From: Pseudosulfitobacter koreensis
GTDB lineage: Bacteria; Pseudomonadota; Alphaproteobacteria; Rhodobacterales; Rhodobacteraceae
Length of the DNA: 64,000 nt
NCBI RefSeq assembly: GCF_024733015.1
Contig: NZ_JANKJG010000007.1
Location: 124,001 to 188,000 of the forward strand
Direction of reading: 5' to 3'
Shown here in pieces: positions 53,261 to 61,913 of this stretch. Position 1 is the stretch's first letter. Every line of letters starts with the position of its first letter. Below the pieces are notes generated by a model. That model saw only the letters and a program-made list of their open reading frames with translations. It was not told the origin of the DNA and did no database searches. The translations under genes were made by a program, and so were the position numbers.

Positions 53261-54661
53261 TCAGCCCACCTGATAGGGCAGCACATCCCGCACATCGGGA
53301 TCGACCTGCAATCGCCGCTCCAGGGGTGGCACCGACCGCTGGTGGCACTGCTTGCGCTCGCAGATCCGGCAGGAAATCCCGATAGGCTCGAACGCATCGC
53401 CGCGCCCCAGATCCAGCCCGTCGGCATAGACCAGATCGCGCGCATGGCTGATCTCGCAGCCGAAGGATATCGCAAACCGCCGCACCGGCGCGCCGAACCG
53501 CCCCGCCGGTTTCGACACGTCCCGCGCAAGGCTCAGGTAACGCACCCCGTCCGGCGTTTCCGCCAGCTGCCGCAGAAACTGCCCCGGCTGCTCGAACGCG
53601 CGGTGCACGTTCCACAAGGGGCAGGCCCCGCCAAAGCGCGCGAATTGCAGCCGCGTCGCCGAATGGCGCTTGGTGATCTGCCCGGCCTGATCGACGCGCA
53701 CGAAAAAGAACGGAATGCCCTTGGCGCCGGGCCGTTGCAGCGTCGACAGCCGGTGCACCACCTGTTCGATCGACGCGCCGAACCGGCTCGACAATATCTC
53801 GATGTCGTGGCGACAATCCTGCGCCGCCTTCAGAAACGCCCGATAGGGCATCAGCGTCGCGCCCGCGAAATAGTTGGCCAGCCCGATCTTGGCGATGGCG
53901 CGCGCCTCGTCCGACTGGAACCGCGCCAGATCCAGCGTCGCCTCCAGCAGCGCATCCTGCCGCACCAGCGCCAGTTGCAGCAGCATCTGGAACGTCTGCG
54001 TCTCGGGCGAAATCCGGGTGGAAATCCGCAGGGTTTTGGCCCCGGCATCATAAGACCGGATCAGGTCCATGTCGTGGAATTGCACCGTCACGCCCGCATT
54101 GCCCAGCCCCGCCACGACCGCCACGCGGATGTTGCCCGGACGCCCCTCGGCGGTGGCGAAATGTTCGGCGGCACGGTCCACCGCGTCGATGTAGTTGTCG
54201 CAATAATGAAAGAAGTCGCGCACCTCTTCCCAGGGGCTCGGACGGGCGCGGGCATCTTCGCGCCCCAGTGCTTCGTCCAGCGACGCCAGCCGCTCGTGGG
54301 TCTGGCGGTAACTTCGGTGCAGCGCGATGAACGCGTGGGCCAGCGCGGGCGCATTCGAGGCCGCCAGCCGCAGATCGGCCATCGGCGGCGCGTCACCCGA
54401 AAACACCGGATCGGCCAGCGCCTCGCGCATGTCCGACACCAGCCGCTCGCTGTCGCCGGTGCTCAGCTCGGTGACGTCCAGACCGAACTCCTGCGCCAGC
54501 GCCAGCACCACGGTCGTGCTGACGGGCCGGTTGTTGTTTTCCATCTGGTTGAGATAGGGCAGGGACACGCCCAGCTTTTCGGCGAAATGCTTTTGCGTCA
54601 TGCCGATGCGCGTGCGCACCTCGCGCAGCTTGGCACCGGCATAGAGTTTCTGTTGAGCCAT
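53261..54661 (-). CDS. pccR: PccR-like (short-chain fatty acyl) transcriptional regulator
   Basis: 466 residues: N-terminal XRE helix-turn-helix (LYAGAKLREVRTRIGMTQKHFAEKLGVSLPYLNQMENN), a middle IrrE/ImmA-like region without an obvious HExxH (NIRVAVVAGLGNAGVTVQFHDMD), and a C-terminal domain with paired cysteines (GGACPLWNVH...GISCRICERKQCHQR). This is the ScfR/RamB/PccR class; R. sphaeroides PccR controls pccB. Start 54661 gives MAQQKLYAGAKL. TTTGCAA boxes lie just upstream (54673-54710), suggesting autoregulation. pccB lies about 1.5 kb away. Confidence 0.9.
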   Translation of the reverse strand: MAQQKLYAGAKLREVRTRIGMTQKHFAEKLGVSLPYLNQMENNNRPVSTTVVLALAQEFGLDVTELSTGDSERLVSDMREALADPVFSGDAPPMADLRLAASNAPALAHAFIALHRSYRQTHERLASLDEALGREDARARPSPWEEVRDFFHYCDNYIDAVDRAAEHFATAEGRPGNIRVAVVAGLGNAGVTVQFHDMDLIRSYDAGAKTLRISTRISPETQTFQMLLQLALVRQDALLEATLDLARFQSDEARAIAKIGLANYFAGATLMPYRAFLKAAQDCRHDIEILSSRFGASIEQVVHRLSTLQRPGAKGIPFFFVRVDQAGQITKRHSATRLQFARFGGACPLWNVHRAFEQPGQFLRQLAETPDGVRYLSLARDVSKPAGRFGAPVRRFAISFGCEISHARDLVYADGLDLGRGDAFEPIGISCRICERKQCHQRSVPPLERRLQVDPDVRDVLPYQVG

Positions 54662-54672
54662 GGGCGCGCACC

Positions 54673-54710
54673 TTTGCAACTTAGCACGCGCCCAGTGTTA
54701 GCTTTGCAAA
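54673..54710 (-). promoter_or_regulatory. PccR-type boxes in front of pccR
   Basis: TTTGCAAC (54673-54680) and perfect palindrome TTTGCAAA (54703-54710), 22 bases apart, between the MFS-gene stop and the pccR start. They match the TTTGCAAA half-site I recall for R. sphaeroides PccR; the published arrangement had two half-sites 4 bases apart. Confidence 0.6.
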
Positions 54711-54711
54711 C

Positions 54712-55941
54712 TCAGTCCGGCAAGGCGTCCGGTGCAATCTGGCGTTCGCGCCAATAGACCGTGCCGATCGACACCATCGCCAGCACCGATGTGATCGTCA
54801 TCATGTACAAGAGCGGAAAGGCCCCCGTTTCGGGCGTCAGCAGCGTGCCGACCAGCCCCGACAGCAACGCGCCGCCGCCGATCTGGATCGCGCCACCCAG
54901 CCCCGATGCCGTTCCCGCCAGATGCGGGCGCACCGACAGCATGCCCGCGGTGGCGTTGGGAATGACCAGACCGTTGCCAAGACCCACGAACATCATCATG
55001 CCAAAGAACGACCACGGGCTGCCGAGGCCCACCGCGAACAGTGCCAGCGACCCCGCGACCCCGATAAAATTCGAGAAACACCCCACCAGCACCATCCGGT
55101 TCACGCCGTACCGCGTGGCAAAGGCCCCGGTGATCGCGTTGCCGACCATATAACCGATGGCGGGCGCGCCAAACACCAGCCCCAGCATCGACGGCGACAT
55201 GTTGAACAGCACCGAACCGACGAAAGGCGCGCCGCCCAGATAGGCAAAGAACGACCCCGAACAAAAGCCCGACGCCAGCGCATAGCCCCAGAACCGCGGG
55301 CTGCGCAGCAATTCGGGGTATTCGCGAAACTGCGCACCCAGTGTCTTGCCGGTGCTGGTCGCCGTCTCGCCAAGGTCGGCCCAGACCACCCACAGCGTGA
55401 TCGCCCCGATGATGAAGAACGCCCAGAAGTTCGCGCGCCAGCCGAACAGCTCGTCCAATACGCCGCCGATTGCGGGGCTGACCATCGGCACCACCGACAT
55501 GAACATCGTCACGATGCCGATCATCGACGCGCTTTCGTTCTGGTCGTACAGGTCGCGGATCACCGCGCGGCTCAGCACCATGGCGACGGCGACGACCGCC
55601 TGACACATGCGGAAAAACAGGAAGATCTCTGCGGTGGGCGCATAGATGCAGCCCAACGTCGCCACCAGAAACAGCGATAGCCCGCCCAGCAGCACCGGCC
55701 TGCGCCCCAGACTGTCGGATATCGGCCCGATCAGCACCTGCATCACCGCGCTGACCCCCAGAAACAGCGCCACCGACAGCTGCATCAGCCTGTATTCGGT
55801 GTCGAAATACTCGGTCATGTTCGGCAACGACGGCAGGAACATGTTCATCACCATGGCCGACATGCCCGCAAGCATGACAAGGGTGATCAAATGGGGCGGA
55901 GTGGAGCGTTTGAGAAAGCGCACAGTTGGTATACGTTGCAT
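54712..55941 (-). CDS. MFS transporter, Bcr/CflA-like
   Basis: About 409 residues with 12 helices, the MFS loop motif GPISDSLGRRPVLLGGL and motif LSRAVIRDLYD typical of the Bcr/CflA multidrug group, plus a mid-protein SPAIGGVLDELFGWRANFW. Start 55941 is a best guess; ATG 55977 is in frame and no start has a clear ribosome site. It is divergent from pccB and co-directional with pccR, whose promoter boxes lie directly after its stop. Whether it exports an acyl metabolite or is unrelated is unknown. Confidence 0.87.
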   Translation of the reverse strand: MQRIPTVRFLKRSTPPHLITLVMLAGMSAMVMNMFLPSLPNMTEYFDTEYRLMQLSVALFLGVSAVMQVLIGPISDSLGRRPVLLGGLSLFLVATLGCIYAPTAEIFLFFRMCQAVVAVAMVLSRAVIRDLYDQNESASMIGIVTMFMSVVPMVSPAIGGVLDELFGWRANFWAFFIIGAITLWVVWADLGETATSTGKTLGAQFREYPELLRSPRFWGYALASGFCSGSFFAYLGGAPFVGSVLFNMSPSMLGLVFGAPAIGYMVGNAITGAFATRYGVNRMVLVGCFSNFIGVAGSLALFAVGLGSPWSFFGMMMFVGLGNGLVIPNATAGMLSVRPHLAGTASGLGGAIQIGGGALLSGLVGTLLTPETGAFPLLYMMTITSVLAMVSIGTVYWRERQIAPDALPD

Positions 55942-56013
55942 TTCGGGAAGGTAGATCGCGCCTCTGGCGGTGTCCATTGCATTCAGCGCATAGCAGCCAT
56001 GCGCCTCCGAATG

Positions 56014-56063
56014 TTTTGCATATTTGCAATTAGCAAATCCATACCGGCAAAGGATTTGCAAAT
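56014..56063 (+). promoter_or_regulatory. Cluster of PccR-type boxes upstream of pccB
   Basis: Between the divergent MFS gene and pccB: TTTTGCAT (56014-56021), TTTGCAAT (56023-56030), TTAGCAAA (56030-56037) and the perfect ATTTGCAAAT (56054-56063). The last lies about 70 bases before the pccB ATG, a promoter-proximal position. Confidence 0.65.
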
Positions 56064-56132
56064 ATTCCACAAGATGCTTTTGTGCGCAGGCCGACCCTGA
56101 TAGCCTGCCTCAAATCGCAACAGGGGCCTGAC

Positions 56133-57665
56133 ATGAAAGACATTCTGACCGAACTGGAAGACCGTCGCGCGGATGCGCGTCTGGGCGGCGGACAAACCCG
56201 CATCGACGCACAGCACGCCCGTGGCAAGCTGACCGCCCGCGAGCGGATCGAATTGCTGCTCGACGAGGACAGCTTTGAAGAATTCGACATGTTCGTGACC
56301 CACCGCTGCACCGACTTCGGGATGGAAAAGCAGAAACCCGCAGGCGATGGCGTCATCACCGGCTGGGGCACCATCAACGGCCGCATGGTCTATGTGTTCA
56401 GCCAGGACTTTACCGTGTTCGGCGGCTCTCTGTCCGAAACCCACGCCCAGAAAATCGTCAAGATCCAGGACATGGCGATCCAGAACGGCGCGCCCGTCAT
56501 CGGCATCAACGATTCCGGCGGTGCCCGCATCCAGGAAGGCGTCGCCTCGCTTGCGGGCTACGCCGAGGTGTTCCAGCGCAACATCATGGCTTCGGGCGTG
56601 GTGCCGCAGATCAGCCTGATCATGGGCCCCTGCGCGGGTGGCGCTGTCTATTCCCCCGCGATGACCGACTTCATCTTCATGGTGCGCGACACGTCCTATA
56701 TGTTCGTGACCGGCCCCGATGTGGTGAAAACCGTGACCAACGAACAGGTCACAGCCGAGGAACTGGGCGGCGCATCGACCCACACCCGCAAATCCAGCGT
56801 CGCCGACGGCGCGTTCGAAAACGACGTCGAGGCATTGGCCGAAGTGCGCCGCCTCGTCGATTTCCTGCCCCTGAACAACCGCGAAAAGCCGCCCGTGCGT
56901 CCCTTCTTCGACGAGCCGGGCCGCATCGAGACCAGCCTCGACACGCTGATCCCCGAAAACGCCAACACCCCCTACGACATGAAGGAATTGATCCACAAGG
57001 TCGCGGACGAGGGCGATTTCTTCGAGATACAGGAAGAGTTCGCCAAGAACATCATCACCGGTTTCATCCGTCTCGAAGGGCAAAGCGTCGGCGTCGTCGC
57101 CAACCAGCCGATGGTTCTCGCGGGCTGTCTCGACATCGACAGCAGCCGCAAGGCCGCGCGTTTCGTGCGCTTCTGCGATGCCTTCGAGATTCCGATCCTC
57201 ACGCTGGTCGATGTCCCCGGCTTCCTGCCCGGCACCGGCCAGGAATTCGGCGGCGTGATCAAGCACGGCGCGAAACTGCTCTTTGCCTACGGCGAGGCGA
57301 CGGTGCCCAAGGTGACCGTGATCACCCGCAAGGCTTACGGCGGCGCCTATGACGTGATGGCGTCCAAGCACCTGCGCGGCGATTTCAACTATGCCTGGCC
57401 CACCGCCGAAATCGCGGTGATGGGCGCCAAGGGCGCGACCGAGATCATCCACCGCGGCGATCTGGGCGATGCGGAAAAGATTGCGAAACATGCCGCCGAT
57501 TACGAGGCGCGCTTTGCCAATCCCTTCGTTGCCGCCGAGCGTGGCTTCATCGACGAGGTCATCATGCCCCATTCGACCCGTCGCCGGATCAGCAAGGCAT
57601 TCGCGTCCCTGCGCACCAAGAAGCTGACGAACCCGTGGAAAAAACACGACAATATTCCACTTTGA
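56133..57665 (+). CDS. pccB: Propionyl-CoA carboxylase beta subunit
   Basis: 510 residues, the normal PccB length. Carboxyltransferase landmarks: [58 protein letters not shown] and, in the C half, [26 protein letters not shown] and [18 protein letters not shown] (oxyanion glycines). It transfers CO2 from biotin on PccA to propionyl-CoA, giving (S)-methylmalonyl-CoA. Start 56133 has GGGG about 10 bases upstream. pccA lies 2.2 kb downstream, after five small genes. Confidence 0.97.
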
Positions 57666-57719: not shown

Positions 57720-57983
57720 ATGACCAAGGACCACGGAAAGTCCGTCAAGGACGACGAGACCTACGAAGCGCTGCGCGACGACGGCGCATCGAAGGAAAAA
57801 GCTGCGCGCATCGCGAATGCGAAGGCCAACGACGACCAGCATCCCTCGAAAAAGGGCGGCAGCCAGCCCCCCTACGAGGAGTGGTCGAAGGGCGATCTGT
57901 ACGACCGGGCGCAGGAACTGGACATCGACGGACGCTCGGACATGTCCAAGGATCAGCTGATCGACGCCCTGCGCAACCACTGA
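57720..57983 (+). CDS. DUF7218/Rho_N-type small protein
   Basis: 87 residues. First half: charged SVKDDETYEALRDDGASKEKAARIANAKAND; second half: a Rho N-terminal/SAP-like motif WSKGDLYDRAQELDIDGRSDMSKDQLIDALRNH. Such motifs bind nucleic acid. AAAAGGAG lies about 6 bases before the ATG. It is 54 bases downstream of pccB and likely shares its transcript. Function unknown; also seen as a stand-alone stress-type small protein in other bacteria. Confidence 0.85.
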   Translation: MTKDHGKSVKDDETYEALRDDGASKEKAARIANAKANDDQHPSKKGGSQPPYEEWSKGDLYDRAQELDIDGRSDMSKDQLIDALRNH

Positions 57984-57999
57984 CGTTGCAGGCCGCGCC

Positions 58000-58386
58000 A
58001 TGATGCGCGCGGCCCTCACATCTGCGCTGATCGCCGCCTGCGGCCCGCTCTGGGCCTTCGACGTGCCATCGGGGCAGGCGGTTGATCTGCAAGAGGTCCT
58101 GATCGACGACACCAGCGGCACCAGCATGGTGCGCTTTCGCTTCCTCGCCCCCGCGATCGCGCGCGAGGGCGGCACTATGACCTACGCCGACAGCGCACCC
58201 GATATCGAGGAATTGTGCGCCAGGGTGGTCATCCCCTACATCGCCGAATATGCCCTGACGCCGCAGATCGTGGTGATCTCATTGGCCGACCGCGCGGTCG
58301 AATTCGGCCAGCCCGACCCCGACGCAACCCAGTTTTTCGACGCTTTCCGCATCGAAGGCGACACCTGTATCTGGGAGGCTTTTTGA
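58000..58386 (+). CDS. DUF6497 exported protein
   Basis: 128 residues with a signal peptide (MRAALTSALIAACGPLWAF), then FDVPSGQAVDLQEVLIDD, VRFRFLAPAIAREGG, CARVVIPYIAEYALTPQIVVISLADR and a terminal DTCIWEAF. This matches the pattern I recall for DUF6497, a Rhodobacteraceae-restricted family. Two cysteines in the mature part could form a disulfide. Starts 16 bases after the DUF7218 gene. ATG 58000 or 58003 could be used. Function unknown. Confidence 0.8.
   Translation: MMRAALTSALIAACGPLWAFDVPSGQAVDLQEVLIDDTSGTSMVRFRFLAPAIAREGGTMTYADSAPDIEELCARVVIPYIAEYALTPQIVVISLADRAVEFGQPDPDATQFFDAFRIEGDTCIWEAF

Positions 58387-59864: not shown

Positions 59865-61913
<2,049 letters not shown>

Follow-up and report, generated by a model that had tools for sequence, protein, structure and literature searches.

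Gene organization of the pccR–pccB locus

The window (the whole 64-kb stretch of Pseudosulfitobacter koreensis DNA that was analysed) contains the regulator gene pccR, which adjoins pccB with one MFS transporter gene between them; a location next to pccB is a trait of PccR genes. The genes of this locus are as follows:

53261–54661, minus strand: pccR, ScfR-family regulator of 466 aa, with an HTH domain, an M78-like middle domain, and a ScfRs C-terminal domain
54712–55977, minus strand: MFS transporter gene, Bcr/CflA family (TIGR00710, 255.4 bits; cut-off, 200.9), start codon uncertain
56133–57665, plus strand: pccB, propionyl-CoA carboxylase carboxyltransferase subunit (PF01039, 663.6 bits)
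59865–61913, plus strand: pccA, biotin carboxylase subunit (PF18140 PCC_BT and biotin carboxylase domains)

In the profile search, the pccR product matched PF09856 (ScfRs) with 233.7 bits (cut-off, 24) and HTH_3 with 43.8 bits at its N-terminal HTH domain, both of which are membership traits of the ScfR family, and its middle domain corresponds to PF06114, named Peptidase_M78 by Pfam. Residues 69–464 align to the structures of M. tuberculosis PrpR (E = 8e-90). C431, C434, and C439 (C-X2-C-X4-C), together with C347 in the GAF-like domain, align with the four [4Fe4S] cysteines of PrpR, and Trp144 occupies the position of PrpR Phe155, providing the aromatic residue that is a trait of PccR. In PMC6765138, Phe155 is reported to be the acyl-CoA selector of PrpR, and R. 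sphaeroides PccR is described as having Trp at this position. The protein scored 434 bits with the RamB equivalog of NCBIfam, below the cut-off of 700, and no match to isocitrate lyase (PF00463), a RamB target, was found in the genome, which is 89.94% complete. Judged from its sequence, the product of 53261–54661 is a ScfR/PccR regulator.

The MFS gene was regarded as divergent from pccR in the preliminary description of this DNA, which is wrong: it has the same direction as pccR and is divergent from pccB. Its end lies one base beyond the box at 54703–54710. Two small proteins of unknown function (DUF7218 and DUF6497) are encoded between pccB and pccA (57720–58386), and a scan with up to one mismatch found no TTTGCAAA box of its own near pccA.

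Distribution of the boxes in the window, the genome, and the family

The TTTGCAAA-type sites of the locus are listed below, with offsets on the pccB side counted from the promoter-proximal box:

54673–54680, minus strand: one-mismatch box TTTGCAAC (GTTGCAAA along pccR), near the putative pccR start point; this second-box position is conserved in the family
54703–54710, minus strand: perfect box TTTGCAAA, between the putative −35 and −10 of pccR
56015–56022, plus strand: distal half-site TTTGCATA, one mismatch, family-array offset −40
56023–56030, plus strand: distal half-site TTTGCAAT, one mismatch, family-array offset −32
56030–56037, plus strand: distal half-site TTAGCAAA, one mismatch, family-array offset −25
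56044–56051, plus strand: degenerate half-site CCGGCAAA, recognized by eye; GCAAA occurs at offset −11 in 13 of 116 loci
56055–56062, plus strand: perfect promoter-proximal box TTTGCAAA of pccB, offset 0

In total, two perfect and four one-mismatch TTTGCAAA sites were identified in 54673–56062; of these six, two fall in the interval from the MFS stop codon to the start of pccR and four between the MFS gene and pccB. The number of sites with up to one mismatch in the whole 64-kb window is ordinary (11 versus 12.95 expected), but six of these 11, including both perfect ones (two in the window versus 0.52 expected from shuffles), fall inside this segment. None of 200 dinucleotide shuffles reached six sites per 1391 bases, the shuffle maximum being four. 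The earlier observation of TTTGCAAA-type boxes at the pccR and pccB promoters is confirmed, and boxes upstream of pccB are a further trait of PccR systems found here. The five boxes listed previously were recovered, four of them at the positions given (54673, 54703, 56023, and 56055) and the fifth starting at 56015 rather than 56014, whereas the one-mismatch site at 56030 had been omitted.

A whole-genome scan for the boxes, which had been suggested as a check, yielded 51 perfect sites, compared with 11 of the reversed word and about 28 estimated from scaled window shuffles. Because of this genome-wide excess, single boxes mean little and arrays matter; the surroundings of the listed perfect sites outside the window (45 loci) were checked for near partners. 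Searches with perfect, two-box, or 8-step half-site patterns (10 of the 12 matches to the last were looked at) found no third convincing intergenic array in the 89.94% complete genome. The clusters at C1:185634 and C17:109440 were rejected as PccR targets, lying inside coding frames, as was C17:34952/34991, whose two sites fall at the start of a presumably cobT-like gene (judged from its translation) and just within it. The site at C14:197550 (L218) is intergenic and has a single partner only. A single perfect box was also found in an AT-rich intergenic region at G000:C14:394100 (L222), about 70 bases before an ORF that we take to be carA.

For the family comparison, 141 PccR loci were assembled, namely the 80 named loci that ranked best among 589, a further 60 from family genomes (57 of 199 searched genomes, chosen mostly for lower identity, and three of the genus), and the window. 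Among the best 80 of 589 named loci, pccR is accompanied by an MFS match in 74 and by a pccB match in 72. Upstream regions were obtained for pccR in 140 loci (L179, without upstream sequence, was dropped) and for pccB in 127. Of the 140 pccR regions, 131 carry a perfect box no further than 75 bases from the gene start, and 120 of the 127 pccB regions carry one no further than 180 bases from theirs; the corresponding shuffle means are 1.7 and 3.0 loci. Box-aligned logos, built after removal of near-duplicates, comprise 128 pccR and 116 pccB regions; of the 137 and 123 non-redundant loci, 9 and 7, respectively, lacked a perfect anchor box and were left out. In these logos, information is low outside the arrays and the promoter elements. 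Because the flanks drift while these features stay, it is the sites that are conserved, not whole sequences. The ordinary count in the whole window, and the fact that other genomic perfect-box clusters overlap coding genes or their starts, would suit a reading in which the boxes are chance short AT-rich words between genes. That reading has a negligible probability: the clustering speaks against it, and the family-wide conservation already refutes it.

The boxes also follow the presence of PccR. As a PccR-negative set, 24 family genomes were used that have either no match (10 genomes) or a weak ScfR-type match with E = 2e-22 or worse (14 genomes); this set omits genomes with intermediate matches, whose E values lie around 1e-68 to 1e-103 and in which other ScfR proteins may be encoded. 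pccB was found in 23 of the 24, giving 22 readable upstream regions (L268, without upstream sequence, was dropped), of which two contain a perfect box and one (L261) contains two or more boxes. The PccR-positive set consists of 13 genomes with pccB outside the fetched stretch, 12 of which yielded pccB, although in at least L276 and L283 the two genes are linked a few kilobases further off. All 12 regions contain a perfect box, and 10 contain two or more. The difference between 12/12 and 2/22 corresponds to p = 1.7e-7 in Fisher's exact test, a value not corrected for phylogeny. The suggestion that PccR targets these boxes is supported to the extent that pccB boxes accompany PccR. The exceptions among the PccR-negative genomes are L261, with an array, and L264, with a single perfect box. 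In L261 (G133), whose assembly consists of about 460 contigs, no PccR orthologue was detected; PccR may be absent from the assembly or have been recently lost.

The genome has two PF09856 matches, and similar boxes are common to ScfR proteins, which is a reason for considering another regulator, such as the second ScfR-like protein at C14:265703, as the user of these boxes. This protein is distant (47.5 bits), however, and the repeated words upstream of its gene differ in the three genus copies read. In addition, the boxes stay with pccR and are mostly missing without it, though weak ScfR-type matches remain in 14 of the 24 genomes of the PccR-negative set. Such an assignment thus appears very improbable. 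The second gene (G000:C14:265703–266962; L017, L031) encodes 436 aa and lies next to an apparent sensor-kinase region. The words upstream of it, TTTTGGAAAA and TTTTGTAAAC, are 42 bases apart and recur in the three genus copies read, out of six (L032, L035, and L036 were left out).

Promoter architecture and box spacing

The following promoter elements were assigned to the two genes:

54695–54700, minus strand: putative −10 of pccR, TAACAC, weak; family TAnnnT at +10
54718–54723, minus strand: putative −35 of pccR, TTGCCG, in the last codons of the MFS gene; family CTTG at −14
56078–56083, plus strand: putative −35 of pccB, TTTTGT; family CTTT at +22
56101–56106, plus strand: putative −10 of pccB, TAGCCT; family TAnnnT at +46

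A consensus promoter scan of the window found neither promoter, and both assignments rest on conservation. The transcripts are predicted to begin at about 56113 (plus strand) for pccB and about 54688 (minus strand) for pccR. With the proximal box of pccB set as 0, TTTGC starts at −40, −32, −25, and +8 in 59, 78, 28, and 64 of the 116 regions, respectively, and at 0 in all 116 by choice of anchor. The opposite-sense GCAAA is rarer in the same frames (13 at −40, 9 at −32, 15 at −25, and fewer than five at +8). The half-site at +8 has the family consensus TTTGCCGA, and this copy is degenerate in the genus of the window. CTTT starts at +22 in 73/116 regions and TAnnnT at +46 in 75/116, the two elements being 17 bases apart. 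The pccB arrays thus precede the −35, at distances of roughly 50 and 90 bases from the putative start, which is an activator position.

These positions are fixed relative to the pccB promoter elements, whereas the distance to the MFS gene varies: no fixed box-to-MFS distance was found in the 29 loci compared, where the MFS match extended to the first residues. Arrays also persist at pccB loci that have no MFS match in the locus (7 of 12 in the comparison of genomes with and without PccR). Both observations argue against the view that the pccB-side arrays chiefly serve the MFS gene, or that pccR is expressed by read-through from it, which we regard as very improbable even though the MFS gene separates the two arrays and, in 74 of the 80 named loci (best 80 of 589), continues into pccR. 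Possible control of the MFS gene by PccR, as proposed earlier, is unsupported in that form, with no MFS promoter element placed and the distance variable. pccR may nevertheless receive read-through from the MFS gene as well. An inverted repeat (GCATAGCAGCCATGC) at 55985–55999, just 5' of the MFS start, has similar counterparts in genus relatives and is perhaps a separate MFS operator.

When the 128 pccR regions are numbered from their first perfect box, CTTG begins at −14 in 70 of them and TAnnnT at +10 in 61. These elements are 17 bases apart, which places the box inside the core promoter. GCAAA half-sites, summed over offsets, number 68 in frames +20 to +23 and 70 in frames +29 to +31 of the 128 regions, and those at +20 to +31 are near the likely start point. 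The pccR boxes thus occupy the −35/−10 spacer and the vicinity of the likely start, which is a repressor position. The autoregulation of pccR predicted from the boxes gains support from this geometry, most likely in the form of repression. Precedents among ScfR proteins point both ways: RamB is described as negatively autoregulated in PMC3420887 and PMC4448153, and M. tuberculosis PrpR is reported to be necessary for the up-regulation of its own gene, its mutants losing up-regulation of prpD and prpR (PMC6765138). The sign of the effect at pccR is therefore the least certain step. A PccR that occupies both arrays but turns its own gene on, or whose effect changes sign depending on the ligand, would follow the PrpR precedent; it seems unlikely, given boxes inside the core promoter, where a bound protein usually blocks polymerase, and the self-repression of RamB.

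The operator of R. (Cereibacter) sphaeroides PccR at pccB, studied by Carter and Alber in 2015 (J Bacteriol 197:3048), is reportedly TTTGCAAA-X4-TTTGCAAA. Their PccR study is cited in PMC12632250 and PMC10370305. The X4 pair is absent from the window. When one mismatch is allowed, only three of the 127 loci show boxes in this arrangement (12 bases apart), and a single one, L168, shows it with two perfect boxes, whereas two boxes 32 or 40 bases apart are present in 85/127 (59 and 52, respectively). L168 comes from a genome (G049) with a plasmid contig that is 99.8% identical to plasmid records of C. sphaeroides 2.4.1. It shares with the window an orthologous regulator and target and TTTGCAAA boxes, and its proximal pccB box keeps the family distance to the CTTT element. 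Its pccB array reads TTTGCAAA-GTCA-TTTGCAAA, whereas in the window the proximal box is accompanied by boxes at distances of 40, 32, and 25 bases and, at 11 bases, by no more than a degenerate half-site. L168 has pccR boxes as well, 20 bases apart compared with 30 in the window. X4 spacing is thus a C. sphaeroides trait that is not general to PccR orthologues. The spacing does differ from X4, as first noted, but this is no peculiarity of the locus: the 32/40-base spacing is typical in the sample, and it is the published operator that appears to be an outlier.

Predicted action of PccR

We consider it likely that PccR binds both arrays, activates pccB with propionyl-CoA, and represses its own gene. 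The analysis shows the sequences, their conservation, their placement relative to conserved promoter elements, and their co-occurrence with PccR, and from there we infer binding, activation, repression, and propionyl-CoA as the ligand. PccR would bind tandem TTTGC half-sites at both promoters, the perfect TTTGCAAA boxes probably being the strongest. At pccB, it would occupy the distal group (56015–56037) and the proximal group (from 56055), upstream of the −35, and when loaded with propionyl-CoA would activate pccB, perhaps together with the genes that follow. In the pccR promoter, PccR would sit in the −35/−10 spacer and near the start point, resulting in self-repression. In R. capsulatus, deletion of pccR impairs growth on propionate (PMC10370305). 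Several observations count against this explanation: the weak −10 of pccR in the window (TAACAC) and the consensus scan that found neither promoter, the L261 array without a detected PccR, the single box in L264, and a report that deletion of the PccR-like gene in P. denitrificans left the tested ccr and icl reporters unaffected.

PrpR resembles PccR in being an acyl-CoA-responsive ScfR protein with a perfect TTTGCAAA within its footprint (PMC3420887), but its two boxes are one base apart in a single shared divergent region, it controls the methylcitrate cycle, and it reportedly helps to activate its own gene (PMC6765138). RamB of C. glutamicum and P. denitrificans is also an ScfR protein with paired boxes, and a C. 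glutamicum RamB site, bound according to mutation, contains TTTGCCGA, the +8 consensus of the PccR family (PMC4448153). It differs in targeting acetate and glyoxylate-cycle genes and in the 18-base distance between the P. denitrificans boxes.

A broader generalization, to which we give somewhat less than an even chance, is that the working unit of PccR is not a palindromic TTTGCAAA X4 pair but a TTTGC half-site that has a direction and recurs about every 8 bases. Upstream of the pccB −35 the array would be directed toward the gene, and within the core promoter of pccR it would run counter to transcription. Position alone would then set activation or self-repression by the same propionyl-CoA-responsive protein throughout the family, and the studied operator would be an outlier.

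No roseobacter PccR operators were found in the literature searched, most subscription papers being outside its reach. Most sampled relatives, marine roseobacters included, have the longer array, and searches based on X4 would miss such operators. From the conserved placement, pccB and pccR are predicted to be affected in opposite ways. In the ethylmalonyl-CoA route, propionyl-CoA carboxylase also serves acetate. Its role in acetate use via this route is described in PMC12632250. The presence of Ccr in the genome (616 bits), together with the lack of an isocitrate lyase match, fits the ethylmalonyl-CoA route, and the PccR switch should therefore matter for acetate as well as propionate.
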